Assembly (NCBI RefSeq): GCF_008831285.2
Contig: NC_045143.1
Span: forward strand, 23,500,302-23,564,301
Reading direction: 5' to 3'
From: Nymphaea colorata
Taxonomy: Eukaryota > Streptophyta > Magnoliopsida > Nymphaeales > Nymphaeaceae
Length of the DNA stretch: 64,000 nucleotides
Shown here: piece by piece, positions 2,581 to 62,618 of the stretch
Layout of the letters: each line of letters opens with the position of its first letter
Numbering within the stretch: position 1 is the first letter of the stretch
Program-made: the position numbers and the translations under genes
Notes under the pieces: model-generated
Databases searched by the model: none
Told to the model about the DNA's origin: nothing
The model's input: only the letters and a program-made list of their open reading frames with translations

Positions 2581-6083
<3,503 letters not shown>

Positions 6084-6112
6084 TTCGATTTCCTTCTTGT
6101 GGGAAGAAGCTC

Positions 6113-6208
6113 GGAAACCCTAGGCGATTGCCTGCTCCCGCCTCAAAAACTCTAGCCGCGAGAAGGCTGTTCTACCTTTTGTATGGCTCTTCCGGAGGCT
6201 AGGGTTTC
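6113..6208 (-). promoter_or_regulatory. Two telo-box motifs at the RPS14 5' end
   Basis: On the minus strand a GAAACCCTAGCC motif lies at 6197-6208. A second telo-box-type site lies at about 6113-6126, in the 5' leader about 30 bases before the ATG, and reads GGAAACCCTAGG on the plus strand. Telo boxes (AAACCCTA) are enriched near transcription starts of plant ribosomal protein genes, which fits RPS14. The exact transcription start is not determined. Confidence 0.6.
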
Positions 6209-6287
6209 GCAAGTGAGTTTCAATGCACGAGGCTAAAAACAAAGCGGATATGGGTCGAATTCAATTAGAACCGCAGCAGAATTCGAC

Positions 6288-6381
6288 ACTTTCGGATCCG
6301 GATCCAAATAAGAACCGGTTTAGATCATTGGAATTCAAATCCAAATGTGAACTATGGGCAATGGATCCGGATAAAATGGTA
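6288..6381. repeat. Dispersed 95-bp repeat, copy 1
   Basis: Shared almost base for base with 21055-21153, including the AAGAACCGGTTTAGATCATT and TCCAAATGTGAACTATGGGC cores. It lies directly upstream of the RPS14 leader. GGATCC- and ACCGGTT-rich words link it in style to the minisatellites at 15,870-16,720. It is probably the end of an unidentified transposon family. Confidence 0.75.
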
Positions 6382-7851
6382 AGAGGAGGGTCCTTTTTAA
6401 ATAATGTTATTCTTATTTTACGAGACATTTGATTATTTCGTATTTGAATCAATCCACATAATAATATGTGGATGTGATGTGATGATATGCTTTTGTTGAT
6501 ACGATAAAAGTTTCCGTTTAGTCTTCATGAACCTAAGAGTCTCAGGTCAGACTTAACATATACACTTAAAATTCTTATTTTAATTCTTTGCATTCAAAAC
6601 TGTAGATCCGAAGAGGAAGGTCTGATATTAAATCTGATCCTAAAGATTTTATATCACGAGCAATCACACGCCCCTTTACACATTTGTATTCAGGGCATCT
6701 TGTTCTTCTCAACAGTGACGCGAACCAGGCTGTGCCGACTGACAAGAACGAGTGGTATCAGCCTTTTTTTTTTCTTTATGGGAAGAATATATATATATAT
6801 ATATATATAAGAAGGCACACATTAATATATATGAGGTAACACATTGTATGGCAGAATATCAATATATCACAGCTCATGTACGTATTGGGGTATTTCCACA
6901 TCCATCCCGCTGAGTTATTCACAGCTCGTACTCCAGAAGAACAAGCGGTACCTTGTCTCTACCTCCTTCTCTCATGAGATGAGTAGTTCAAAACCATCTG
7001 GTCGTACATTGTTCGGGTAAAAGTTACAGATAGCAATCAGAATAACCAGAACTCAGCCACAAAGAAGAAGATATGCAGCTCCCGGAGGCATTGCCGGCGC
7101 ATGGAGCGAGGCTGTATTGTTCTGCACTTGCCGTTGAAAATCCAGTGATAGACGCATCAGCTGCCAGCGAGAGAAGAATCTCGTCTCTGTTCTGCAGTGT
7201 AGTACTGTTGTCGATCCTTTTGTTTGAGCCTTTATAGCAAACGCTTGTCGGTGGGAGCGAGTGCAAGTATTGCAAAAGAGCTTTCGAGTCTGATCATTGA
7301 CAAGGAGGTCTGTAACTGTAGCAGGATGATCTTTTTATAAAGTTAAAGCTCTTGCCAGAAGAAGCCAGGTTTCCTTGCCTAGGAGAAAGCATCCTGATTT
7401 TATAACAAGGCGTCCTTAAAAAAAATTTGGGCAGTGATAAGCCAAGGTGGATAATTAATTTTCAAGATTAATACCTTGATTAAAATAAAAGTTGGACAAG
7501 GTCAAATTCGAATGTGGCTTGACACCTGCTGGGATAGAAGCCAACATCTTTTTCCTTTCTCTTTTTCTACTTTCTCCGTGAAAATGTAAAGTTGGTTCAA
7601 TCAAATCAATCCGTTTTCTGTAATGTGGAAAGATCAATTGTACTGTTTCATGAATATGAAAATAAAGTTCATTCGTTTATTAATAAAATAGCCAGTTTAC
7701 ATCCGTACATTGACATAAAGACAGTTAACATAGAGAGATCTGATATGATAGGAACAAACAATTTCAGTTCTGAGATTGGATTCCTAAGGCAAGCAATCAA
7801 ACCTCCTTTATGCCCCAGAAAGTCACTGCCCTCTCGAAAACAGGAACCTCA
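6382..7851. other. Spacer upstream of RPS14
   Basis: AT-rich sequence with a (TA)n tract at about 6,788-6,809. A minus-strand 83-codon open frame at 7,024-7,275 has no recognisable domain. I see no supportable gene. Confidence 0.4.
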
Positions 7852-7859
7852 CATGAGAG

Positions 7860-8019
7860 TAGGAGTGGGCATCGGGCCGGGCTGAGCCAGCCCGGCCCAA
7901 TGGGGGGAAGGGGGGAAGGAGAGGTCCCAGGCGGAGGGGAGGGAGGAGGAGGAGGATGGGGGACGGGCCGGGCCGGGTACCAAGTACTCGCCGGCGGCCC
8001 GGCCCGACACCCAGACCTA
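7860..8019. mobile_element. hAT-type miniature element with 8-bp target duplication
   Basis: 160-bp GC-rich element flanked by perfect 8-bp direct repeats CATGAGAG at 7852-7859 and 8020-8027. The ends are imperfect inverted repeats: TAGGAGTGGG on the left, and TAGGTCTGGG as the reverse complement of the right end. The interior is GGCCCGGCC-rich with a G-rich centre. An 8-bp duplication plus TAGG-type ends is the hAT signature. It has no coding capacity. Its right end is about 100 bp from the larger element that starts at 8134. Confidence 0.8.
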
Positions 8020-8133
8020 CATGAGAGAATCCTGTCTACAGGACTAAGAAATTATTACAAAACTTCAAAGAAACTGCAACAGTTGGCAAGCTTCAATAAT
8101 AAAAGTAAAATGCTTGAGACATTGATTCTCAAT

Positions 8134-8330
8134 TAGGGCTGAACACAGTCGAGCCCGAGGTCGACTCGACTCAAGCTCGAATATAGCTCGACTATCCTGG
8201 CTCAAACTCGACTCGATAGTCACTCATCCTTACTTGTTGAGCTCGAGCTCAATTAAGGCTCGATAAACTCGTTTGGTACTCATCCTTATCGAGCTCGATT
8301 AAGGCTCGATTACCAAGGAAATCAAATGTC
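8134..8330. repeat. Left arm of the Pack-hAT: CTCGA-rich subterminal repeats
   Basis: Starts TAGGGCTGAACACAGTCGAG and continues with many GCTCGA, CTCGACT and GAGCTCGA words on both strands. It is matched by the arm at 13,125-13,325 in inverted orientation. It is non-coding. Confidence 0.7.
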
Positions 8331-8657
8331 CCATTGGCCGTTAATGTTTATCCTCATAATTATATTTTCCTATGAATTCCTAAAAAAACTTCAACTTAAA
8401 AAAATAATAATAAGAGGTCATATTTGAGTTGACAAAATTAAACATTATATGGGTTGGGAGTAAGATCTTATGAACATTATATATTTTCCTTTTGGTGCTA
8501 TGTTGTGAGAGTAGGAGCAACAGAAGAGATACCTGTAACCAACATAAGAATAAGTTCTACGCATCAATATCAAAGTCATCTTCAGTGATTGATGAAATAA
8601 TGGAACTAACACTCTTAAGGGAAAGCTTTCCGACTCTACCATGCAACCATTTACAGT

Positions 8658-8995
8658 TTATAAGTTTACAAGAACTCCCCTGTCTGCATAATGCTGAGGG
8701 TCTGGAGAAAGATCACATCTACAATCATCAAAGCCTTCATGGCAGAAATGGGGATTGACTTCATTTAACAGTTCATCATTTTGACCACAGCTTCTCAAAG
8801 CCTCCAATGCTTCCAAATACATGGGTCGACGAAGAACAAGTGAATTTTCTTTCATATACTGAAGAGTTAGAATCAGAACAAACATTTCCCTTGCTATTGA
8901 ACACTTATGGACAAGAATATTGCAAGTAACCTTGTCAGGCTGTACCCCAGCATTTTGCATTTTGCATAAGATGTCAAATGCCTCCTTGAATTTAC
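8658..8995 (-). pseudogene. 3' exon fragment of a pentatricopeptide-repeat protein gene
   Basis: A single 3' exon that follows a TATATAG acceptor and runs open to a TGA stop, 111 residues. Its start matches part of a PPR motif (FKEAFDILCKMQNAGVQPD then KVTCNILVHKCS), the helical-hairpin type used by organellar RNA-binding proteins. A non-repeat tail follows, containing EALRSCGQNDELLNEVNPHF. No upstream PPR exon was found before the next gene fragment at 9684, although family members usually carry ten or more motifs. It lies inside the hAT-type element, so I read it as a captured and 5'-truncated piece. The exon itself has no stop or frameshift. The exact source gene is not identified. Confidence 0.65.
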
Positions 8996-9683
8996 CTATA
9001 TACATTAAAATATTGAATTAAAATAAAAGTCTGAACAAATGAAGCTCGTGTAAGCACACTAGCTATCCAAATACACTAATTTTTAAGTGGCGCAGATGCA
9101 GGTAAAAACCAAACAGCCAGGAGAAGCACTAGAAAAGGGATGTGCAAATTCTTGGTGCTAATGATAAGTCATCATACATCATCCACTAATACATAATGAG
9201 TTTTTCTGTGTTTTCAGGAATTTCTGTGTCCAAAAAATTAGTGTCAATGCAGGACGTGAAAGCCAAGTGAAACTATCTGTTGACATAGCTTTGAAATGTG
9301 AACTTGGAAAAACTCTCAGATACGCTTCAATGTGGATGCATCAGACATCAAATGGCAATGAGATGGAGCAACTAGTTCACCTAAGAGTAAAAAATGGTGA
9401 CTGAAATAGTATTAACTACCACCACTTCCAAATGGAAAGTGACAGAAGCATATGAACTTTAAATACTGGTTGTGTGGAAATCTTGCAGAAAATAGCCTAA
9501 TTGATTTTCAATAGAAAAGTAGAAAGAAAAATACATGACACGTTCACAAGTGCCATTTCCAAAGATTGCTCAATGGAATATGATGTCACATGATATTCAG
9601 AATGTCTATGGATATAATGATTTACAAAGATGATGTGAGGATCTTTGCATGTTATCTACATCCATATCTTAAAGACTGCAACT

Positions 9684-10512
9684 TCATGCAACAAACTGAT
9701 GTGACAACCAGATTCCCAATGATACTATCCCTATAATAGCAAAAGCTTGGCTGAATTCAATGAAGATGTTCACTTGATCTTGATCAGGAGGCATTGCCGG
9801 ACAATTCGTTCTTCTGCAAATACAATGAAGTCATACTTCACTCACCAAGAATGACATAAAAAAGCATTAGTAGCTTAACGTGCATGGTAGAAGGCATGCA
9901 ATTATCTAAATTATGACATTATGTACATATGCTTATTTATAGCCAATCGGACCAAGCCTGATATTCTGAATGATGATGTTATACAACATGCAGTAATAAG
10001 CTTTATGAAATCCAGGAGACCATTTTAACAATGCTTACATTGTCCTGTGACTTTCGATCCTGAAAAACATAATTGAGCATTTGTCCAGTGAGAAAAGGGA
10101 TGAAACATATGCATTATATGAACTCAATACTAGACATGTATGGTCAAGTACCAAGGCAGCAAGGGCCATAGCTTCACAAGCGGACTGCAAGAAAAATGAA
10201 ATGCAGGTCAGTCATTGCTTAATATTTCAGCAGAAAATGGGAACCACCAAAATATTTGCCTGAACATCACCATGCTGACGAAGTTGATTTCTAACAAATC
10301 GTACAACATCTAAACTGAAAGCATCAACATGAAAATATTAGTGACCAAAACAATCATATGACTAAAAGAGTTCAACATGTTTGACTTTTGCAAACCAGCT
10401 CATGTAATCCCAGAGGCCATCTGATGCCAGGATTAAAAATTCTGCGTCCATGCCAAGAGCGACTTGGTATACGTCCGGAGTAGCAGTAACCCAGTCACCA
10501 TTCATTTTCACC
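9684..10512 (-). pseudogene. 3' part of a TAP38/PPH1-type protein phosphatase 2C gene
   Basis: Exons 10396-10512, 10260-10314, 10152-10184, 10039-10059 and 9684-9813 encode the C-terminal end of a PP2C. Visible motifs are NGDWVTATPDVYQVALG, EFLILASDGLWDYM (metal-binding DG), VVRFVRNQLRQHGDVQ and DRKSQDN. The last exon encodes a hydrophobic tail (FAIIGIVSLGIWLSHQF) typical of TAP38/PPH1 (PP2C57), the thylakoid phosphatase that dephosphorylates LHCII. Only about the last third is present; catalytic exons upstream are missing because another gene fragment begins at 10924. The short segment normally linking the SQDN motif to the tail (SIIIADLG in relatives) is not found. One junction uses a GC donor (CAG/gcaaat). 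I infer a captured, decaying fragment rather than a working enzyme. Confidence 0.75.
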
Positions 10513-10923
10513 CTGGAAAGAAAATAAAATAAATAAAATCAGCCGAAAGTTTTCCTTGCCCCATAGCTAGTAGTTTGAGCTATTAGAAGAGAAACCAGAA
10601 AAAATTGTCATTTGCTTTTGCTTCTGATGGTTTCTACGGAATCACAGACCTGCTTGTTATATTGTCACCTATTTAATCATCGTCACTAGCTAAGAAAATC
10701 TCCAGTAGGATTATAGGATATCATGCCAGTGCTGTGTGCTACTTGAAATGGCAGATAAAAAATAGATATGTATTCCAACACGAAGTCAAAGGACCTTCAT
10801 GAGGAAAGCAATGATCTGCAGGATAAACACACCAGATATATGAACAAGATAAAAGCATTGAATTTCATTTAAAGCTAAAGAGCACCAAAGGTATTTTCAC
10901 TGTTCACACCTGAAAAAGTTTCT

Positions 10924-12832
10924 TCATGACACTTTTGATGCTAATATCTCATTCAGCCTTGCAGACTTTTGACCCTTGTGGAGCAAACGTGATGGAAGCA
11001 CAGAAGAAAGAACAAATACAAATGCGATACAAAGGATTGCTAAAATTCCAACCCACCAAGCCTTGTATGGAATCCCAAGTAAAAGTTCATCACATACTGC
11101 ATTTGGGAACAAAAATTGAAACTAGTAAGTATACAAAAGAACTTATTTGGAATTACCCAGATCCACCATTTGTTTCGTCTTTCAAGACAGAAAAAGGTAA
11201 ATTGAAGAGGATGAACTCTTTGTATGTATTGAATTTGTTCATCAATATTTATTCATGGCAAATCATATAATGCTTTTATTGGGATAATAAATATAGATCA
11301 ACAGTCTGCATTAAGTCGCCAACATGAGAAGTATGAGTTTAAGACCTTCGAGTTGAAGAAGCTCAACAATTCAATGCCCCGAGTGTATCTCTTGGCATAA
11401 TCTGGTAGGGTCAGCCTACTCCCCTTTGCCAATTGGAAAAAAGGGTCTTCACAAATTTAGGAGCTCAATCGAGTGGGCAGCCAAATGACAAAAGCCAAAG
11501 ATCAAGTCATCAGTTGCAGTGACTGAGACAGTAACAATATACCTTTAGCACCCATTTGTGTTCTGCCATACTTAGGAAATAATTCAGTACCTATGGTAGG
11601 GCAGCTGATTAATCGTGTAAATTCCTTACCAATGTTAAACATATCCTTTAGATGTGGCTTTGCAACAACACCTTCCGGCTGAACATACACTAAAGCACCC
11701 TCACTTGTGTCTTCATTGTTCTCCTAACAACGAGAGCAATCATAATAGTTAGTATGTATAAGACATCACTTGCTTTCCTAATTACACTCATAAATGATTG
11801 AAAAACAGTTAGAAACCAACCAAACTGTGACCTCCAGATCTGAAAATCAGCTTCTCAGTGTTAAGCAATCTTCTGAGACTAAAAGCACGTTCTTGTTCAA
11901 AGTTCCCCCTCTTCAATTCAATGGAAAAACTTGCTGGAATCTAATGAGTCATGGGATCAATATTATCTTAAATGGGCATCATGGTGAACATCAAGAATCA
12001 GCAAGGGATACTGAAATACGTACAGAAGCAGGGTAAGATATCTTCACTTCATACCAATGTAGAGGTTTCAGACCAATTAACTTGTAATAGCGGCTACCCA
12101 TTTGTAAAGGTAAAGTTTCATTATGCAATTCTAGTCCAACAGACAGTTCCTTCATATCAGATCTGCGAAACAAATAACAAAGTAAACTTCACAGACGAGA
12201 AAACGTACAACAGTATAAAGATGGGTAACTCAGGAACATTATAAATTTGAAACTAAGAAGCTTCCAGGTTAAGAAAACTAACGTAGTTCCAAGCTCAGAA
12301 GATACACTGCAAATAAAACACAGATGAAGGCAAAGCAGAATACTCAGAGCTGCCATCTAACTGGTTGGGAGGAAAATAGCAGATAAGTAGGAAAATTGCA
12401 CCATAGAACTGGACTCCCAGGCTGCCATGAAAATAGTGACAAATGATCAGTTATTCCAAACAAAAAGGCAAAACTCAACCACCAAAATGACACATCATTT
12501 AAAAATTTATGCTTTCATCAAATCATGTAACATGTTTAGCATGTCTCAGACTCATATATATTTCACCTCACGCTGCAAAAGAGATGAGCAGAGCGCAACA
12601 AGTGTATCTGGTTCTTCGTGGGAACCAGGGAGAGGCATTCGGATGTGTCCGAGGAGACGGAGAGGGAAAAGCGTCTGCAGGAGGAACCGAAAATATGAAT
12701 CGCGATGAAAACGAGAGAGAGAATGCAGAAAGAAAGCGTGAGAGAGAGAGAGAACTTGCACAGGCAGGAACCTTGGTCAGCTTGAAGGGAGAAGCGCCAG
12801 AAGGCTGAAGCAGAGAGCACACGCAGACGCAA
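10924..12832 (-). CDS. Single-pass membrane protein gene, five exons, inside the hAT-type element
   Basis: Exons 12567-12832 (tentative), 12024-12162, 11821-11940, 11630-11723 and 10924-11096 join with GT-AG sites and matching phases into an open frame of about 263 residues. The order is: an N-terminal exon with a hydrophobic stretch (LSLTLSFCILSLVFIAIHIF) that could be a signal peptide; an ectodomain with VGLELHNETLPLQMGSRYYK, GLKPLHWYEVKISYPAS and RRLLNTEKLIF; then CDELLLGIPYKAWW leading into a membrane segment (VGILAILCIAFVFVLSSVLP) and a basic tail ending at TGA. I recognise it as a conserved plant family but cannot name it or assign a function. It is the only cargo of the element that looks intact. 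The first exon lies in GA-rich, repeat-like DNA and could be a chimeric replacement for the original 5' exon. Confidence 0.6.
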
Positions 12833-13324
12833 GAGCGGAGAGCACAGGCACAGGCAGGAACCTTCGGCTGAAGGCGGAGCAGCCGGCTGAGTCGCTGACC
12901 TTGAAGGCTGAAGTGTCCCACGGCCGCGGACGACGGAACTAGGAAAAACGCAGTCACAGACGGAGAACTGGAGAAGAGAAGGAGAAGTCGGAGAGACCGA
13001 GAGAGGGAGAGTCGGAGTCTGAGAGAGAGAGAAGTGAGAACGAAAAAAGGAAACCTAAGCGAAAAAGAGTTTCCCGCTTTCTCATCTGAACCGGTTTTTT
13101 AAAACCGGTTCATTAACTAATCGAAACGAGTAGAGCTTTAACGAGTTCGTTAAGTAGTTCATTTAAGTGAACTCGAACTCGAACTCGAACTCGAGTGAAT
13201 TAGTTAAACGAGTCGACTCGTCAACTCGAGCTTGACTCGTTTAACTAAATAAGCAGCTCGAACTCGCTTACGAGTCGAGCTTAAATGAGTCAAACTCGAG
13301 TAGCTCGACTCGTTGTGCACCTCT
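12640..13324. repeat. GA-rich block and right arm of the Pack-hAT
   Basis: 12,700-13,070 is GA-rich and includes an internal near-repeat of GCACAGGCAGGAACCTT. A near-palindrome GAACCGGTTTT/AAAACCGGTTC lies at about 13,088-13,111. From 13,125 the CTCGA/ACTCG words build up to the end CTCGACTCGTTGTGCACCTC. This arm is the inverted partner of 8134-8330. Confidence 0.6.
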
Positions 13325-13333
13325 ATTCTCAAT

Positions 13334-13962
13334 GCCCAGAAAAAGCTCGTTTATCAGTAAGCAATTGTCGTCACTTAGCTCAGATTTTTAGCCAGACGGA
13401 GTGGTAAGGCTGGCCATTGTTCGACAATTGTTCAGGCAGATGACTTTCTATAGCGTAAGTAACAGTACTGCTTACTGACTGGTATGACTTGACTAGGACT
13501 ACCCCACAAGGTGATCTTGGCAAGCCAATGTCCTCGCACCTAGGTGGCCAAGAAAGTGGTCTAAGGTGAAGAAAAAGACAACTTTGTTTAATATCTTTTT
13601 GCCATTTTTTTTTATCAGAGGCCACCCAGAAAATGGTCAGACTTACGTCGCCTAAATGAAGTGGTGCTATTCTGACAATTTCCCACCAGCCACCAGATGA
13701 AAATGGTCCAGAAAGTGCTTTATCCCCCCAACTGTAGTGCTGTGAGGGGTTCATCGTGTCACCACCTCCATACAAAACCTAGTTTTCTATTAGCAAAACA
13801 GACATAAAACTTTGTTCCTCGTATTCTTGAACTCTTGCAGATTCATTTGTATGTTTGTTTGTGCACTTTCTGTCTTCGGTTGTTATTTTTCTTTGTTTTA
13901 TTAGTTTCCTAGTTAGAATTTAAAGGTTTTAGAGTAAAATTATAGTTTATTTGAGTTAGTAA
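13334..13962. other. Spacer between two mobile elements
   Basis: A 131-codon minus-strand open frame spans 13,380-13,775 but has no domain I can recognise, no splice context and no repeat signature. The rest is AT-rich. I cannot assign a function. Confidence 0.35.
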
Positions 13963-14184
13963 TGTTGGGACTGGTTCGTGTCAAAGTTTTCTAGAGTCAA
14001 TTTGAGTCTTTTTGAACTATTAAAAAGTGGACAAGGGTCTACTTATTATTTTTTATATAGTGGACTGAAATTGTAAATATGTAGTCAAGACCCTAATATC
14101 TTTTAATATGAGATTAGGGTTATGTGAATGCATATGAAAGTTTCCTTTCTCTCTCTCGTCCTTTTCTTCCTCCAATATTCAACA
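13963..14184 (+). repeat. 5' LTR of Copia A with adjacent primer-binding site
   Basis: 222 bp bounded by TGTTG and CAACA. The PBS TGGTATCAGAGC begins at the next base. No partner 3' LTR is present in the window. Confidence 0.75.
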
Positions 14185-14381
14185 TGGTATCAGAGCAACA
14201 GACCTAGGATTGTGCAATATAGGGTTTCACGGTCCTTCCCTCCTTTCTCATCTCTCCCGTCAAGCTAGGGTTTCATGTTTGAAATCTCTGCTGATTATAA
14301 AAGAAGCAATCAGACCGTTTGGTGGAAAGGGGCTAATCACATTTAACATGTAGAGACGTGATTAACACCCTGGTGTTGTTG

Positions 14382-14600
14382 TTGAAGACGTTAAGTTGCA
14401 GAAAAAAAAACAACAAACCTGATGTCGTTGTGTATGTTGCTGCCATGGAAGAAGGTCAGACCATCGACAAGGGTATGCTAATCTGCTTGGTATTGAAGTT
14501 AATTGCAGAAAAAAAAAAACAACAAACCTGATGTCGTTGTGTATGTTGTTGTTGTGGAAGAAGGTCAGACCATCGACAAGGGTATGCTGATCTGCTTGGT
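14382..14600. repeat. 109-bp tandem duplication in the Copia A leader
   Basis: Two adjacent units, about 14382-14490 and 14491-14600, share an A-tract and then ACAACAAACCTGATGTCGTT, GAAGAAGGTCAGACCATCGA and CTGCTTGGT. Only a few differences separate them. Confidence 0.85.
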
Positions 14601-15869
14601 TGGGTGCTGCCTTGTGGATCTTCGCATTTAAAGGTATGTTTTGTTGGCAGCGTTGAAATCATATGGAGGGGCAGCATCGTTGAAGTCAAGACTGGTTTCA
14701 GTTTGTTTCTTTTTCAACATAGTTGACGTTGAGTGGAGCTGTCCAACTTATGTGTGTTTGCTGCCTGCAATCTATATCTGAAATTGCTGCCTATTGTGGT
14801 CGTCTAAAAATAAATAAATAAAAAAAATTTTGTGGTGCCTGTTGAAAATTTGGTCTGTTGTCGTCTGAACATTTGCTGCATGCTATAGTCGAAAAATCTG
14901 CTGCCTGTTGTCGTTTGAGAAAAAATTATATTTGCTATCTTGTTTGTGTTCAACCTACTGCACATTCTTTGGTTGTGGTCTTCGTGTTCGAGTACAATTT
15001 TTTTCTATGGCTGATAGTAGTAGGTCAAAAGGGTCTTCTTCATCTACTACAACTTCTTCATAGGCTACAACTTCTATGTTTGAGTCTCCTACGGTCCTAC
15101 CTGTTCTCCTATACCTCCATTGTATTCTCTCAACTTAAGCAAAAAAGAATATGATCTGGTTCTTGCTCAGAGGTCTACTCCTACCTCATACCTCAACCAG
15201 CACAACTTCCATAGACTCAGCCTTCTCTGTTGGTGCCCCTACCAGTGACCCAGGTATGATATGGATAATTAATTCAAGAGCATCCATACATTGTTGTAAT
15301 AAGCCATATATGTTTTTATTGTTTATCAGGTTCACTATACCACAACACGTCAGGTTGGCTGATGACAAGTTGTCCCCTATTCTTGGCAGCAGTGATATCT
15401 ATCTCACACCTTTTGGCACCATTACACGTGTGCTATACTCCTTGATTTCCTTTTAACCTGTTATCTTTTAAGCAATTGACTAGAGATTTACAGTGTAGAG
15501 TCACTTTTTATCCTGGTTCATGTCTTGAAAGATGATTGGTGACGGCCATGAACGGAAGGGGCTCTATTTCCTTTCTGTCCCTGTAGATGTTGTTGCATCA
15601 TCTTTCACGTCGAAGCTTTTTCTTTGCAGTGACATCTCAAACTGGGGCATCCTTCTGTGTCCAAGCTTCATCGTATTTTTTCAGATATTCCTACATCAGA
15701 GTCTTTCTTATGTGATGCATGCCAGTTAGGCATGTCCACCGTTCGCCTACTGTTCGGCAGGCCAACGGTGGAGCAACTGCACACGAACCGCCCGCGGGCA
15801 GACGGTCGGACCCAGGACCCGGATCCATAAGGATTTTCAAAAAAAAAAAATCCTTTTTTGCCGCCCGCT

Positions 15870-20012: not shown

Positions 20013-20476
20013 TGTAAGGATCATTTGGTAGGCCGGCATATGTCTATGAGAAATTTCAGACATTATGGCTATCTTAATGTAAATATTCGCTTAAGTGATT
20101 GCATTTTGAGATATTACGTCATTTTATATGGTATGAGGTAATTTTATGATGTACAGATACCTGCATGCAATTATGGACTCTTTGATGGGTTGAATCCGTA
20201 ATTGCCCATAATATAAAATGGTAGTGGTCCCTTGAGTCGTGCGAATGGTTGGCAGAAACGTTGGTTTCTAGGATGGTCTCTTCCCCATCTGAGAGTCACC
20301 ACACGTGCATCGCAAAGACCCTGGAAGATTCTACCGCAATCTACCGTTCGTGCAGTTCAGATGGATTCAGATACGCTTCCGCTTAAGTTAAAGTTTTTGT
20401 TTCAATGATTTAGCATTAACATGATTCTGTTTAGGGCATATTCGTTTTGTGTATGCATGACGAAAATCTTCCATCA
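20013..20476 (+). repeat. Presumed 3' LTR of element B
   Basis: Starts TGTAAGGATC right after the purine-rich tract and ends CCATCA at the AGGCA duplication. It contains a promoter-like region without clear coding. No matching 5' LTR is seen at 15733. Confidence 0.55.
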
Positions 20477-21054
20477 AGGCAGACATACACGTAGTAGTTT
20501 TCCTTTAAATCGGAGTCCATTGAGTCAAAGTCCATTTGATCTTCTGCATGTTGATGTTTGGGGTCCAAGTCGTGTTTCTTGTCGTTTACATTTTTTATAT
20601 TACCTTGTTCTGGTTAATGATTTTACTAAAGTCAGGTGGGTATTTTTGTTACAGGACAGGTCTGAAGTCATCTATATTCTTCACAAATTTGTCATTGAAA
20701 TAAAAACTCAGTTTGGTGTTATTGTCAAAAGTATTCACACTGATAATGCTTTTAAATTTAAATCTTCAGTTCTACTCCAATTTTATGTCAATCATGGGAT
20801 TCTACCATAATACACATGTCCCCACACATCTCAATAAAATGGTATTGCTGAACTCAAACATTGACAGCTTCTATATGTGGCCTGTACCCTCATGTTGCAT
20901 ACTCATATGCATGCATATTTTGGGGTGATGCTATTCTTACTGCATGTTATTTCACCAACAGATTGCCCTCGTCTACCATCGAAGAATGCATCCCCATTCA
21001 AATACTATATCCCGATCGACCATTATTTTATATACCTCCCAAGGTATTCAACAT

Positions 21055-26356: not shown

Positions 26357-27025
26357 TTTAATGACCTTAAATGCAATTGCTTCCTACTTGCATCATCTTG
26401 AAAACAATTTGTTCCATGCTTCCGCTTCACATATATATAAGAGTTCTCCATGTCCTTCTAAACCCTGTTGTTACGTGCCTCCTTGAATTGACGCAAGTTT
26501 TATTTAGGGCCATGCTCCTTACAAGTAGTGAGCACCTCTTAATTTGAGACTAAGATATCATGATTTCTTCTAAGAAACTTTTCTGGGGAAGATGAAAAGA
26601 AAAAAGGAGACTGGTAAGAAAATAAGATGTTGTGCTCCAGCTAAGTGACCTTACAAAGCACATCGATGGCCTCATTTGCACTGATGAAGCATGTCTTCCT
26701 GTGGTCTCTTTCGAGAATAAGTTGTGTGCACCGGTCCAGAAAGAAAAACAGGTAGGGGGATGTTTTAAGAATTATTAAAAAAATGTCTTTCATAATTTTT
26801 TTTTTACTTTTTTCAGTTTCTTTTTTTGTTTATACAAAAAGTTTCATTTTTTCATTAACCAAAAGCATTTTCCTAAGTTTGTGTACCGCAAGGTATACAT
26901 AATCCACTTGAGTCTCTTTCAACATTTTCTTAATTGGTTAGCTCATCCACAAAAGAAAAAAGGAAAGTTCTATCGCATGACGCATGTTCATGTGGGGTTG
27001 CTAGTATCTGAGTTGGTACGCTCAT

Positions 27026-27407
27026 ACAACTGCACAACTAGCCGAACCAACTTGGGTTTGACTCAAACTTACTCGAAAAACTCGGCTTGTGCTCCATTAG
27101 TTTATAAATTAGCCGAATTCGAGCTTACAAAGATACTCAAAACAATAGATGAGTCGAGTTTGAGTGTCAAGATCTCGATTCCTTTATACTCGACTCAACT
27201 CGCAAACCAGTGACAAAACCGGTTCTATGAATCACTCGTTTTAACTTTTAAGGCTAAAACAAAATTTCACAAGTTACATGAGTTAACACTTACACGAGTT
27301 AAACAAGTTAATGCTTACACGAGTTAATGCCTAAACAAGTTAAATTGGTTAAACGAGTTAAGTTCGATCCAAGCTCGAGCTCGACTCAGCTCGTGTGCAG
27401 CCCTGTA
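27026..27407. mobile_element. Short relative of the Pack-hAT, with target duplication
   Basis: 382 bp flanked by TACGCTCAT at 27017-27025 and 27408-27416. The left end begins ACAACTGCACAACTAG, and the complement of the right end reads TACAGGGCTGCACACGAG. The interior carries many ACTCG/GAGTT/CTCGAG words like the arms of the 5.2-kb element, but no gene fragment. It supports the ends assigned to the larger element. Confidence 0.7.
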
Positions 27408-56651: not shown

Positions 56652-59600
56652 CTATTCAGCTTGGAAATCAAGGAAGGGTAAAGAGAAGGATGCATCTTCA
56701 ATCAACTCCTCCAAATCCCAATCCCTCAACCTCCACTTGTCTGCATCCCAATAATGAGCATCGCCAGCATTGTTATTGGTATTATAGTAGTTGTTATCAG
56801 CATTGGTGGTCGTAGTGGTGGTAGGAGTGGCGGCAGCGGCGCTGGTGGTGGCGGCAGTGGTGATTTCTTCGATGCTGTTATCCAAAGATGGCACGAAAAA
56901 TTGCCCATTAGTGCCATGCATGATAGGAAAAGCTGCCTCCAAGCCACTGCTAATATTAGCATTTACGCCGTCCATTAAGCTGGTGGGCATGTGGAGGTAG
57001 CTGGTCAAGCCGGTTGTGGCGCCGCCATAGCCGGCTTCTAGCAACGGAGACGGATGGAAACGGTTGCTGTGAATATTGGAAGCTTGCATGGATAAGGATG
57101 AGGAGGAAGAAGAAGACGATGAGTCCATGTACATGATGATGGCAGGTTCCTGCATGGATGTGAATCCTCCCGTCATCTCATGATCCTTAGTCTCGGAACT
57201 GCCATGGCTTTGCTTTCCTGCTACTGTTGTCGACTGTACTGGTTGATTCTTGAGCCTCTTTTTGATGGTAGAATTCCAGAAGTTCTTTATTTCATTGTCA
57301 GTCCTGCCCGGTAGCCTAGCCGCAATTTGTGACCACCTGTGCATCAATAAATGCCAATGTTATGAGCAAGAGCAATCTCGTTCTTTCTCACACACACACA
57401 CAGACATAAGGCCATAGGAGCGTAGCATAGTTGGTCCTGGAGGAGGCGCGTCAGATAGAACATCTTCTCCTCCATTGTTTCTTGAGCCGCTACTCCTCTT
57501 GAAGGCTTGAGTTTAAATATACAGAGAAGCAGGATTCAGGAGTCTTTCACCCCTTACTTTGATCTCCACTTAACTCTCTCTCGTGTAAGCTTATCTTGAA
57601 TAGAAAATTTCAAGCAATGTAAGGTGGTGGAAGTAAGTAAAATCGATAAAAGAAAGTAGAAAATCATGTTTGAGGTTCGTTAATAAGTTTGGGTCATATG
57701 GTTGGTTGCACATGAATGAAAAACAATAGAATTGATGGACCTGGCAGGTGCGAAGAACTCGTGTCATCAGTTTGATTTCGGTATGCATTATGCCAAGCAT
57801 CTTTGCAGTTAAGCTGGAGTTATCACGCAAACAGTCCACAAATAATAATAAATGGAAGCACGATCGACGCGCAAACATTAATATTAGTTAGTTGTTAAGG
57901 GCGAGTAGAAAGTAATTAAAGAGATTGGATACGAAGGTTCTTTCGAGACTGCCGGCTCTCCTTGTTGACGCAAGTGTAAATGGGACCCACCAACTAGTCC
58001 TTCGAGTACATATCATTAGAATTTTGGTGTAACCGAATTGAATAGAGGTGGCAGGTACCAGTCTTCATTTCGATTCTTCAAAGTCAAAGCCAACTCTTTG
58101 TGTTGTAAACAAGAACGCTACCGACAAGCAAATAGTGCGCACGACACACGTTTTATACCCTAAGAAATCAGGGGTTGGGTTCAACCTAACCTTTTAATCT
58201 TAGTTTCCTATATAATTAAATGAAGGACAATTAATTGTACTCAATTGATAATGGTGCGCCTATGGCTTGGTAAAAGTCAGTTCGCCGTTCGCCTATTCGG
58301 TAGCTAGCACTTCCTAAAATTGGAATGTTTTCAATTACTTAGACATGTACATAATATAGCAAAGAGTTTTCTGACACAATTATCTCTGACCTATTAAACT
58401 TTTTAGAAAAAATCAACATAAGGCAAACATCTGCATATATACCATATCGTATAAGGGCCTTAATATGTAGTGGTAAAACTTGTTTTTTTGTTAACCATAA
58501 AATAGTCTTTTCAGCTACCAGCTAACCTTTACAAAGTACAATCTATTCAAGATCACAACATTGTTCGCGTTCAATATGAATCCATTATATATATATATAT
58601 ATATAATTTGTTGTGATGAAAATAACCCCCATTTCGCAGCCTCGGATAACACTGATGAAGATATAGCTCAGGGCAACACCGTTATCCTACAAATCTTAAT
58701 GTTTTAAGCAGCTATCATTGTTATAAGCAAGCTGTTTTATAGTCAAAATTCTAATTGTTATGTGTGTGTGTGTGTGATTCTCATAGTTGGTTAGCTGTAT
58801 TAGAGTGTGATTCTCATAGTTGGTTGGTTTTATTATAGTATAAATCTTAATTTAAAATATTGGTTCTTTAAATGAAAAATGTGTTCTTTAAATTGCTAAC
58901 AGCTTTTTACACGTTTTGACAAGATGGATTTCTTGAAATGCTACAGAATCCTGCATGCGCATTTCAGTCATTCTGATAGTTACTAAGATGAAGGCACACG
59001 GTTTCCTCTCCATGCATGGAAGCAGGCTTGGACCCTGGGGCACGGGAAAGGGGGCTTTGACTCTCATTCGGGTGCTAGGGCTCTTCTTCTCCACATATAT
59101 GTGCAATGCACATTTGGGTAGTCAAATCTAACATAGATAACTTAACATGCTCTCTCTCTCTCATCTACCTTTTAATTTTATATTTTTTTAAGGTTAAGTA
59201 AATCATACAACTAAACATGCTTTCTCAAGTTGAGAAGAAAAAGGAAAAGACTGAATCAACTTTGCTCTTAGTCTCATAATAATAATTGCACTCTACTTTT
59301 TCTCAAATATATCGCTTAAATTAGACATGTTCTCAATCTGACAACTGTATCCTTATGATCATTGAGAGAAAAAACTAAAAGTGAACAATCTTCTAAATCA
59401 CTCTAAGTGCTTTCTCTTAACTATTGATAGTAAAATAGTTTGCCAAAGAAGAAATATATTAGGTAAAGCAATCAATGCACTTTCGAATCAAGAAGCTGGT
59501 GAAGTTTGCTTGCTATCATACCGTGCTGGACCAAATTACATAGAATAAAAAAGGGTAGAGGGAGGGATGTGTGCGACTGTCATAATTTAACTAGCTACAT

Positions 59601-61845
59601 AGAATAAAAAAGGGTAGAGGGAGGGATGTGTGCGACTGTCATAATTTAACTAGCTGCCTGCTGGGATCTCATGGCCATGGCAACTCTTCGTTCTCATGCA
59701 TACAAACACGGCAACAGGTAAATCTGGTTCTGTATGGAAAGTGATACGTGAAGCGAAACTGAACAAGTAATTAAATTTCTTGAAAAATTATTTCATCAGC
59801 AGTAGTTGATATGATCAATGAAGAAAGCGATCTGAATTGGGAAGCAAAGCCAAGATGGGAAACGAAATTTCAGAAAAGAAAAGTAACTGATTCTCTGGTA
59901 ATTAACTGTGATACACCTGTAATTAAGCTTATGCACATGCATCTACAAATTAATCTAGTTTTCTGTATTTAATAGTATATATAGATATAATCTACATAGT
60001 TGATTTTGTATGTATATATATATATATATATATATATACATCTGATGAAATTCCAACAATCAGAAATGTCAAAATTTTGTAATTTAAGAAACGCTTAAGT
60101 TTTATATTAATTAATGATAGATATGCCATCTTCATACCAGTCATCGTTCTGATCTCATATGCAGGAACATGTGTGAGTGCGGCGTCGTGTGCGAGAAGAT
60201 CAGACTATATATGTTTAATTAGAACTATATCCATTTGCAACTTGCGATTAAAAATTCAGACCTAAGATATAATTTTAAAATTAGGGCTTCCCTATGCTGG
60301 GCTTTATAGATTCAGTTTTAGATTATTAGTCCTTTTTTTTGTGTATGCGCAAAATTAGAAAACTGTGAAATTGTTAAACTTTTTAGATCTTGCTATAGAA
60401 CTTTATAGAACATCTAAACAAAGCCAATCTAGGAGTGAATACTTATGCTTTAAAATAGTGATATATGTCATACCCATGTGGTTAAAATTTTAAAAAGAAA
60501 CATAAGGCTGGAACGTCAAATGTCAAATCATTGCACAGGAAAGAGAAATCTTAAGCATCTTTAGATGCATAAGAACTTTCAAGGCTACAAGTTTCCACCT
60601 AACAACGTTAAGGAGCCATGCTGATTTCATAAAGAGAAATCTAAAGAGATAGATAGATAAATTGAGAGAGAGAGAGAGATTTCTGTTTCAGCAGAAAAAG
60701 CAGTTGACACCATGCAAGTAAAGCTATGAGGGAAAGGAAAAGGCCGTCTATAAGATGAAAGTAGCAGGAGGCGACACCAAGAAGCAAATGAGGCAACCAT
60801 TGGGAAAGCACATGCTAGTGGGCGAGACCGGTGCAATTCGTCCCTAATTACATCTACTGACTCTAGATGGCTTCAATATTTGTGATGAAATCTTACTTGT
60901 TGTAGAACAATTGCATTATTTGTGAAAATTACATCTTAAATCATAATAGAATATATAATTCGCCTTCTTTCAAACTTGGCATGCACCGGTGGATCATACA
61001 ATTTACATGTGAAAAGGCTGCAAAGCATGAGTAGTAGAGCCAGAAATTTCTATCTGAGGAGCATTAATATGTGAAATATGTAAATTATAAGTAAATGACT
61101 GTTGGGTGTGAGTCTATGTGGGCAATTGCCTACACAAGCTAACGTGAGTCCGCAACTGCAAGATATATAGATGGACGTTAGAACATTTAGGTCTGAAAAA
61201 ATCTAATGTGACTGGGGACTTAGTGCAGCGGTGCGTCTTATCAATTCTTTGTATTTTATGATATATGCGTATGCACAAGCAAACTTGATCAAAAGAAATA
61301 CATGACTAATATGATAACACAATACCAGCTTCTTAATATTATAGATCTAAGTAAATTGATGATGGAGTTATTTGCCATTTTCGAAAAAAAAAAAATTAGA
61401 GAGAGTTCGTTAGTGCATGCCTGTTGCCGAGGATGGAATGGAGGTGGATGATGAGGTCTTCCTCCTGGGGAGAGAAGGCGCCGCGCTTGAGGTCGGGTCG
61501 CAGGTAGTTGATCCAGCGGAGCCGGCAGCTCTTGCCGCAGCGCTGCAGCCCGGCGTTCCTGGCGACGTCGCTCCAGCAGCCCTGCCCGTTCCGCATCATG
61601 TAGCTTATCAGCTTCTCGTCCTCCTCCGGCGACCACAGCCCCTTCCGCAGTTTATTACTTGACATGCCACCGCTGCTGCCGCCACCGTCGCTGTTATTGC
61701 CATTAATATTTGTAAGCAGCTTATTACAACACGGTGGAGGGGCAGAATCTGATGATCTTCTCATGATGGTGGCCTGTCGTCTATCCGGCCTCCAATTAGT
61801 GCGCAGGATTTTTGGTTTTTGCTGCTCTTCTCCCTGCTTTCTCAC
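56652..61845 (-). CDS. MYB46: R2R3-MYB transcription factor, MYB46/MYB83 type
   Basis: Exon 1 (61421-61845) and exon 2 (56652-57336) encode 369 residues. The N-terminus starts MRK like Arabidopsis MYB46 but has a longer Ser/Gly/Asn-rich lead. R2 begins [14 protein letters not shown] and includes [20 protein letters not shown] and [21 protein letters not shown]3 runs [17 protein letters not shown] then [20 protein letters not shown]. The Trp spacing is intact (R3 lacks its first Trp, as is usual). The C-terminal half is low-complexity (poly-Ser, Thr/Asn runs) and ends with a [16 protein letters not shown]-type acidic activation motif. MYB46/83 are nuclear master switches of secondary wall synthesis (cellulose, xylan, lignin). 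The usual first MYB intron inside R2 is absent. The single 4,084-bp intron, at the conserved R3 position with phase 2, begins with GC rather than GT. Confidence 0.92.
57337..61420 (-). other. 4.1-kb intron of the MYB gene
   Basis: Contains an exact 59-bp tandem duplication (59537-59654), a shorter TGTGATTCTCATAGTTGGTT duplication (about 58,773-58,835), (GT)n at about 58,758-58,777, and (TA)n at 58,586-58,606 and 60,015-60,038. I recognise no nested gene. It is unusually long for a MYB intron. Confidence 0.7.
59537..59654. repeat. Exact 59-bp tandem duplication in the MYB intron
   Basis: The unit TACATAGAATAAAAAAGGGT through CATAATTTAACTAGC occurs twice back to back (59537-59595 and 59596-59654) with no differences seen. 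Confidence 0.95.
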
Positions 61846-61854
61846 GTCACTGTA

Positions 61855-61893
61855 CAGAGAGAGAGAGAGAGGGAGAGAGAGAGAGAGAGAGAG
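61855..61893. repeat. (GA)n tract in the MYB46-like 5' leader
   Basis: GAGA runs begin about 10 bases upstream of the ATG (minus strand), so the mRNA leader would carry a CT-rich tract. A second GA run lies at about 62,050-62,062. Confidence 0.85.
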
Positions 61894-62618
61894 ATTGATG
61901 ATGATGTAGAGGTGATAGAAGATGTCGGGGAAAGGGTTGTCTTCCTCCTCCGCCTCCTACGCTCCTGCTTGTTTGAAATATTGGGGAGGAGGGACAGCTG
62001 ATGATCAAGCTGGTGGTTGCAGGTCGATGAGAGAAACGGTTTGAGAAAGACAGAGAGAGAGAGGTTGATGGCGACCACTGGTCTCCTTGTCTTTGACTCC
62101 AGCTCTTGTCCTCTTTTCCATTTTTTTCTTCACTCACAAGGTAATCATCTTTCTTCTTTAAGAGAGAGAAGATTGTTTGACAATTAAGCTACCCATTTGC
62201 TTGGATTGTACATCTCTCTCTCTCTCTCTCTCTAGAGGCTCCTTCCTTCTCGGAGAAGTGCAATTAAAAGTGAGCACTACATCGAGCACTTTGGAGAAAA
62301 TATTGAGCATGCGGATCAGGGCTTTGCTATAAGCGATCCACGAACCTTGTGTTCTTAGCAAAAGTAGCGAATTGTTTGCGACACAATAACCGCTAAAGAA
62401 TTAAATAATACATACACGATACACATACACGTATGTGCGTATACATATGTACACGATACACACACAAATATGTGTATATACATATGTACATGATTTGTCT
62501 ATACTGCTGATGTGGGTTCCAAGCATGTAGAGTTTGTGAAACTCTCCACCTATATTGGCATTATTTTTGCATATGTTTGGTTTTGCATGGACTACCCAAG
62601 TGCCTTGTTTACTAATTT

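Follow-up and report, generated by a model that had tools for sequence, protein, structure and literature searches.

The DNA examined here, referred to as the window, is a 64,000-nucleotide stretch of the Nymphaea colorata genome (contig C6, NC_045143.1, positions 23,500,302–23,564,301), and the genome searched with it comprises 407.8 Mb in 783 contigs. Judged by its sequence, the segment at window positions 8134–13325 is a 5,192-bp non-autonomous transposon of the hAT superfamily and of the Pack-hAT type, bounded by terminal inverted repeats (TIRs). Pieces of four host genes make up its interior as a mosaic; from the left, they derive from RabGDI, PPR, PP2C, and membrane-protein genes. The features of the locus are as follows, with the identity of each piece to its donor.

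8126–8133, no strand: left target-site duplication TTCTCAAT, present once at the empty site
8134–13325, no strand: non-autonomous hAT element, 5,192 bp, recognized by its ends, duplication, family, and the transposase of its relatives
8134–8490, no strand: left arm, consisting of the TIR TAGGGCTG and a CTCGA-rich subterminal region, on the 3' side relative to the direction of the transposase
8481–8660, minus strand: captured RabGDI fragment (intron and exon start), 180 bp; donor L019, C3:21.73 Mb, 91%
8661–9553, minus strand: captured PPR-gene fragment (intron and first part of an exon), 893 bp; donor L012, C3:20.63 Mb, 94%
9554–9559, no strand: filler of ~6 bp between PPR and PP2C, from the junction alignment
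9560–10692, minus strand: captured, intron-containing 3' portion of a TAP38/PPH1-type PP2C gene, 1.1 kb; donor L013, C1:37.43 Mb, 94%
10689–12565, minus strand: captured piece of a membrane-protein gene with introns and stop codon, 1.9 kb; donor L009, C4:16.02 Mb, 93%
12563–13325, minus strand: right arm, with a GC-rich, leader-like region that is pyrimidine-rich on the minus strand (measured over ~12526–13075), a CTCGA-rich end, and the TIR
13326–13333, no strand: right target-site duplication TTCTCAAT, identical to the left one

Ends of the element and its empty site

The two copies of TTCTCAAT that flank the element match at 8 of 8 positions. The element ends in TAGGGCTGAACAC and, on the complement, in TAGAGGTGCAC; its TIRs are TAGGGCTG and TAGAGGTG, those of its relatives being mostly TAGGGCTG and TAGGGGTG. 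The original prediction of a 5.2-kb hAT-type element with these ends and with CTCGA-packed arms thus holds, and the element can be given exact boundaries, exact flanking repeats, and transposase-coding relatives with the same ends. Of its 26 CTCGA/TCGAG words, 24 are found in the arms (12 in the first 450 bp and 12 in the last 800 bp) and 2 inside. The predicted 8-bp repeats are likewise exact, but the ninth base that had been allowed for them is a coincidence of the neighboring sequence, since the element itself ends in A. The left arm lacks ~98 bp that are present in the sibling element E10, which is described below; this loss may have left the element unable to move.

Short imperfect TIRs of the TAGGG/CAGGG kind are a motif of the hAT superfamily. 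Such TIRs are present here together with the 8-bp target-site duplication by which hAT elements are also recognized, and hAT transposase domains occur in autonomous-type members that bear the same ends. Pack-TYPE elements are non-autonomous and hold host gene sequence between their TIRs, and the interior of this one is explained by four donors and the two arms. Pack-MULEs have a 9-bp target duplication and long TIRs, and Helitrons insert without a target duplication. The former class is ruled out by the 8-bp duplication, the short TIRs, and the presence of hAT rather than MULE transposase in the relatives; the latter is ruled out by the 8-bp duplication and the empty site.

That empty site was found on the same contig. 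The right flank of the element matches a locus at C6:23.45 Mb, ~50 kb before the start of the window, with 90% identity on the opposite strand. In an alignment with the two flanks joined together, this locus reads across the join and holds GATTCTCAATGCCC, with TTCTCAAT present once. Identical bases occupy 280 of the 361 columns, and a 40-bp gap starting ~12 bp past the join is followed by smaller ones; longer pieces of the flanks are 92–98% identical to the paralogous locus. The empty site is supplied by an inverted local duplication, in which window positions 6196–14602 correspond to C6:23,449,800–23,452,800 (L041) at ~92–98% identity and a distance of roughly 55–60 kb. Precise insertion after this local inverted duplication is the simplest reading of the alignment. 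The search for an empty site proposed in the original prediction therefore succeeded, in a paralogous copy of the locus.

Captured gene pieces and their donors

Three captured genes on the minus strand had been predicted. PPR, PP2C, and membrane-protein pieces are indeed present in that orientation, but a fourth piece, from RabGDI, lies to the left of them at 8481–8660. Its Pfam match is strong in the exon of the donor (E = 3.8e-25) and under the cut-off in the element (0.0021). The PPR piece gives a PPR_2 match with E = 2.7e-8, and its open frame spans 8658–9017. It had been called a 3' exon, which proved incorrect: the donor has an open exon of 337 codons with PPR matches past the captured part, and the element retains the preceding intron and only about the first 119 of these codons, the frame terminating just beyond the junction. 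The call of a TAP38-type PP2C 3' part was borne out by a PP2C match (E = 6.3e-9) and the 94% identical donor; the best match in the PDB is PP2C 57, which we take to be the TAP38/PPH1 phosphatase. Relative to E10, this piece has a deletion of 142–147 bp at 10026–10028 that is private to the window copy. The predicted membrane-protein gene is represented by a minus-strand piece that continues past the stop codon and in which exon 1 is probably missing. No Pfam or PDB match was good enough to name its product, and a genome search found the piece only in the window element and its donor.

Parent genes were sought elsewhere, as had been suggested, and in three cases the gene was seen to continue past the captured part. 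For PPR this is evident from the open frame and its Pfam matches. For GDI and PP2C, upstream exons outside the captured parts were recognized by eye; the N-terminal frame of the PP2C donor gave no Pfam match. The pieces retain introns, which indicates capture from DNA or from unspliced sequence. The RabGDI donor carries an insert of ~186 bp (L019, 4733–4919) with inverted ends and a TTAAC duplication. Because the captured copies in L016 and L018 lack it, this insert probably postdates the capture. The breakpoint between GDI and PPR coincides with the spot of the insert, which may be a fragile site.

Several junctions show overlaps between the joined sequences. The left arm and GDI overlap by 9–10 bp when compared with the arm of L021: ATATTTTCCT at 8481–8490 is common to both, over 9 bp when GDI is taken from the donor and over 10 bp when it is taken from E18. 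PP2C and the membrane-protein piece share the 4-bp microhomology GCTA (10689–10692), and the latter shares the 3-bp microhomology TCA with the right arm (12563–12565). Overlaps of at least 3 bp are thus seen at 3 of 5 capture junctions (chance 0.002), or at 4 of 6 (about 2e-4) when the private PP2C deletion, with its 3-bp overlap, is included. The interior of the window element is free of terminal repeats and contains just two stray CTCGA-type words, which lie in the membrane-protein piece. One inner word of this type was found in each of E10, L035, and L038.

Relatives of the element and the order of capture

With one mismatch allowed, the genome contains 797 occurrences of the left end TAGGGCTGAACACGAG and 2 of the reversed control, a difference that is not due to chance. 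The right end CTCGTTGTGCACCCCTA has 53 exact occurrences and CTCGTTGTGCAGCCCTA has 295. Same-strand pairing of 100 exact left ends, taken among the matches listed, with the 53 right ends yielded at least 18 elements, at least 7 of them 407–738 bp long and at least 11 of them 2.1–9.0 kb. When 10 further long elements were picked on exact ends alone, the 8-bp duplication was exact in 7, had one mismatch in 2, and had three mismatches in 1 (L038). The collection of same-ended copies envisaged in the original prediction includes two that encode a transposase on the element minus strand and have exact duplications. These are L034 (6,988 bp; hAT-like_RNase-H 2.7e-27, Dimer_Tnp_hAT 8.7e-18, and a weak BED finger at 0.011) and L036 (6,631 bp; 4e-11, 8.5e-26, and 0.015 for the same three domains). 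L030 corresponds to L036 with an internal deletion, at which 4 bp overlap. The sibling that had been reported at window position 27026 is a related element, but a short one of ~0.38 kb (27025–27407) with degenerate ends; as judged by eye, TACGCTCA lies on either side of it.

Altogether, 11 long elements comprise 2 with transposase, 1 deletion form, 5 with host gene matter, and 3 without an identifiable gene. Host gene matter is present in L031, L035, L037 (by its likeness to L035), E18, and, at a weak level only, L038. Multi-donor mosaics other than the window element are L035/L037 and L038. The first two are 97.9% identical and have different duplications, so their movement was probably recent. 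Inside, they combine sequence from a CAAX-protease gene (C9:23.96 Mb) and a malic-enzyme gene (C1:28.73 Mb) with three further segments, some of which recur in L031; the flanking exons of the two named donors were recognized by eye. L038 combines segments of C10:8.10 Mb and C1:38.77 Mb, and contains a weak SNF2-like piece (best PDB E value 0.09; 13 matches with E no higher than 1, mostly to remodeling ATPases). Open reading frames of at least 50 amino acids on both strands of six long elements (L029, L031, L032, L033, L035, and L038) were compared with Pfam; the matches other than those to kinase, malic enzyme, and M48 were marginal, namely to HSM3_N (0.014), YqzH (0.016), and SMK1_alpha_su (0.006). 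A response-regulator piece in E18 (Pfam E = 0.034) was dropped as a captured gene, for it belongs to a nested multi-copy repeat. This repeat of ~4 kb (L018, 4332–8400), with a possible response-regulator end, may be another gene-carrying transposon. The 9-kb element L029 likewise contains a nested multi-copy repeat, of ~3.6 kb, at ~4185–7773.

The closest relatives share the captured pieces themselves. E10 (C4:1.64 Mb; 3,769 bp; exact duplication ATGATAGC) consists of the arm, GDI, PPR, and PP2C, followed by a PDR-type ABCG piece (PDR match, E = 8.7e-12) that replaces the membrane-protein gene. E11 (C7) has the arm, GDI, and PPR and then folds back into an inverted PP2C-PPR of the same mosaic (L011, 4118–5840). 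E14 and E15, both on C8 and representing one duplicated insertion, contain the arm, GDI, and part of PPR, and E16 (C11) the arm and a longer GDI piece. GDI is also present in E18 (C13; 8,008 bp; one mismatch in the duplication), where the junction between arm and GDI is different. At L014 and L015 (C8:6.49 and 2.20 Mb), the duplication covers 5.5 kb, starting within the sequence to the left of the element, at 98.8% identity, which means that both copies share one insertion.

The siblings thus form nested, left-anchored subsets, from GDI (E16) through GDI and PPR (E14/E15) to GDI, PPR, and PP2C (E10 and E11), with ABCG as the last right-hand piece in E10 and the membrane-protein gene in the window element. 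This nesting gives an order of capture, in which younger elements have retained the left prefix and differ in the right part. Identical junctions join the arm to GDI in five elements and the duplicate E15, GDI to PPR in four and E15, and PPR to PP2C in three, indicating that each join arose once. The elements also agree in their differences from the donors. All 7 compared for GDI have the same 9; in one PPR stretch 26 differences, and in one PP2C stretch 10, are common to 3 of 3, and a second PP2C stretch has 10 that are common to 2 of 2. In another PPR stretch, only 2 differences are common to all 5 elements compared.

Mechanism and orientation of capture

We consider it very probable that a non-autonomous hAT element took up pieces of four unlinked host genes in succession and then inserted here by ordinary cut-and-paste transposition. 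For the capture itself, repair synthesis with template switching is a reasonably likely mechanism, and it is preferred over fusion of neighboring insertions because the prefix pattern, the microhomology, the unlinked donors, and the lack of inner ends fit it. The element would be excised or broken, and repair synthesis would start from the left arm, copy the older mosaic off the sister template, and switch at a short microhomology to an unrelated gene before the new strand is finally joined to the right arm. A younger element made in this way would keep the left-hand prefix and gain a new right-hand part.

Fusion, in which two family members flank each host segment and are mobilized with it as one, the inner ends being deleted later (Gisby and Catoni 2022), appears unlikely here. 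It has been proposed for every DNA superfamily of Pack-TYPE elements, hAT included, in the account given there (PMC8903248), and the number of left ends counted above shows how numerous the family is in this genome. On the other hand, four unlinked donors would require four rounds of fusion. The host pieces adjoin each other with overlaps of 0–10 bp or the ~6-bp filler. Terminal repeats, which could however have been deleted later, are absent between the pieces of the window element, and when this element was used as query against the four donor loci of ~10 kb each, matches (E up to 1e-6) were confined to the captured stretches. One donor does provide what fusion would predict. A 585-bp stretch in L009 (9255–9839) has degenerate family-like ends and an 8-bp repeat with one mismatch, and it lies ~1.9 kb from the captured stretch of the membrane-protein gene. 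A family insertion near a donor is an expectation of the fusion model, so this stretch counts against template switching; our assessment of the mechanism was left unchanged because the stretch is one-sided, its ends are degenerate, and it has no match to the window arms at E = 1e-6.

Other observations also weigh against successive capture by template switching. GDI and PPR are joined with zero overlap, PPR and PP2C are separated by filler without microhomology, and an inner octamer resembling a TIR is present once in L035, at 1304. For E11, E14, E15, and E16, the loci examined yielded neither a right end nor a target duplication, and the nested series depends partly on such damaged copies. 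The shared donor differences could be changes in the donors, and they back a single capture only jointly with the junctions. No gene was identified in L029, L032, and L033, the last two of which had no donor search. Repair synthesis as such cannot be seen in a sequence.

The captured genes identified in the family, namely GDI, PPR, PP2C, ABCG, malic enzyme, CAAX protease, and a protein kinase, all lie on the element minus strand, like the transposase. Sense orientation is therefore found in 7 of 7 family-level cases (two-sided sign test, 0.016), a count that excludes the SNF2-like piece and includes the kinase piece of L031 without a traced donor, or in 9 of 9 when the membrane-protein gene and the weak SNF2-like piece are added (0.004). 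A plus-strand control of 36 open reading frames from the window element and the right-hand part of E10 gave three marginal matches (0.025–0.045) and no plant gene. The captured genes point away from the GC-rich right arm. In 12 of 13 long elements, E18 being the exception, the region between 800 and 250 bp before the right end has a GC content above that of every inner window of the same size, and 59–72% of its plus strand is purine. We infer that the right arm holds the promoter and leader of the transposase. With such a promoter and leader, the host pieces would lie downstream in sense and could give chimeric transcripts.

The family may even be a polar, sense-only gene trap that gains host DNA only on its promoter side and only in the reading direction of the transposase, but this is a tentative proposal that we regard as doubtful. 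The orientation count is small, and the matches of GDI, CAAX protease (8.1e-4), and kinase (5e-6) in the elements are under the Pfam cut-offs. If capture is sense-only, its polarity would come either from coupling of capture to transcription of both donor and element, or from removal of antisense captures by selection. Should the pattern hold in more copies, it would tell what such elements can feed into new transcripts, and capture polarity in cut-and-paste transposons would obey a rule that can be tested in a single genome.

A functional chimeric gene under selection, with the right-arm promoter driving a new transcript, would agree with the sense orientation of the identified genes relative to a right arm that is GC-rich and, on the minus strand, pyrimidine-rich. 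This seems improbable given that the pieces are truncated, the PPR frame ending just beyond its junction and PP2C having its private deletion. An ordinary three-gene cluster with coincidental flanking repeats might be suggested by the presence of several same-strand gene pieces in a span of 5 kb, but it has practically no chance of being correct, being refuted by the empty site with its single TTCTCAAT, by donors on three other contigs, and by the many same-ended copies with their own duplications.

Comparison with known systems

The original prediction described multi-gene capture by hAT elements as much less described than that by other elements, which is a fair statement in need of qualification, as Hatvine-6, maize Ds2/Ds-l4, and maize Pack-hATs are in print. 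Gene capture by hAT elements is thus already published for grape and maize. Hatvine-6 of grapevine (Benjak et al. 2008, PMC2528002) is described as a hAT family whose members have common ends, are "variable" in length, and often match genic introns and exons in their inner part. Unlike the elements studied here, its members are said to share transposase coding sequence, and its TIR is 13 bp and its target duplication 9 bp, compared with 8 bp here; we found no capture order or orientation rule in its description. The maize Pack-hATs (Gisby and Catoni 2022, PMC8903248) are likewise presented as non-autonomous, with 8-bp duplications and host gene sequence, but their acquisition is ascribed to fusion of neighboring insertions. 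The same account gives two successive gene insertions in a PIF cluster, with pieces of 163 and 58 bp, and mentions similar hAT examples; the pieces here measure 180 bp to 1.9 kb and come from four donors, with microhomology and without inner ends. For maize Ds2 and Ds-l4, intron-bearing gene fragments from other chromosomes are reported in 2 and 9 cases, respectively, and called rare for hAT (PMC3260210). Ds2-22 and Ds-l4-354 are described there with a fragment of one gene each, in contrast to the four donors and nested sibling series found here.

Maize Helitrons (Dong et al. 2011, PMC3288121) are described as having similarly acquired multiple fragments in sequential rounds, inferred from related elements, but they move by rolling circle, whereas this is a cut-and-paste hAT with target duplications. 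For animal Pack-TIR elements, gap filling with template switching and microhomology at breakpoints are reported as well, with hAT as the largest contributor (208 of 370 elements; PMC8277862); only four multicopy cases are given there, whereas the pieces here have passed through several rounds of transposition. In the open-licence literature, no published case of a four-donor hAT series or of a sense-only rule in hAT elements was found. A 2026 review allows that an undiscovered mechanism may remain for the capture of unlinked genes by DNA transposons (PMC13317346). The element is a readable record of gene shuffling by cut-and-paste transposons: because intermediates, donors, and junctions are all present in one genome, the order of events can be read and the two models compared junction by junction.

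Elsewhere in the window, an integrase core fragment on the plus strand at 20409–20807 (4.4e-6, under the cut-off) is probably the remnant of a retroelement. Two open frames on the minus strand, at 61399–61956 and 56655–57359, match the Myb DNA-binding domain (1.1e-21 and 2e-7, respectively) and probably belong to host Myb genes.

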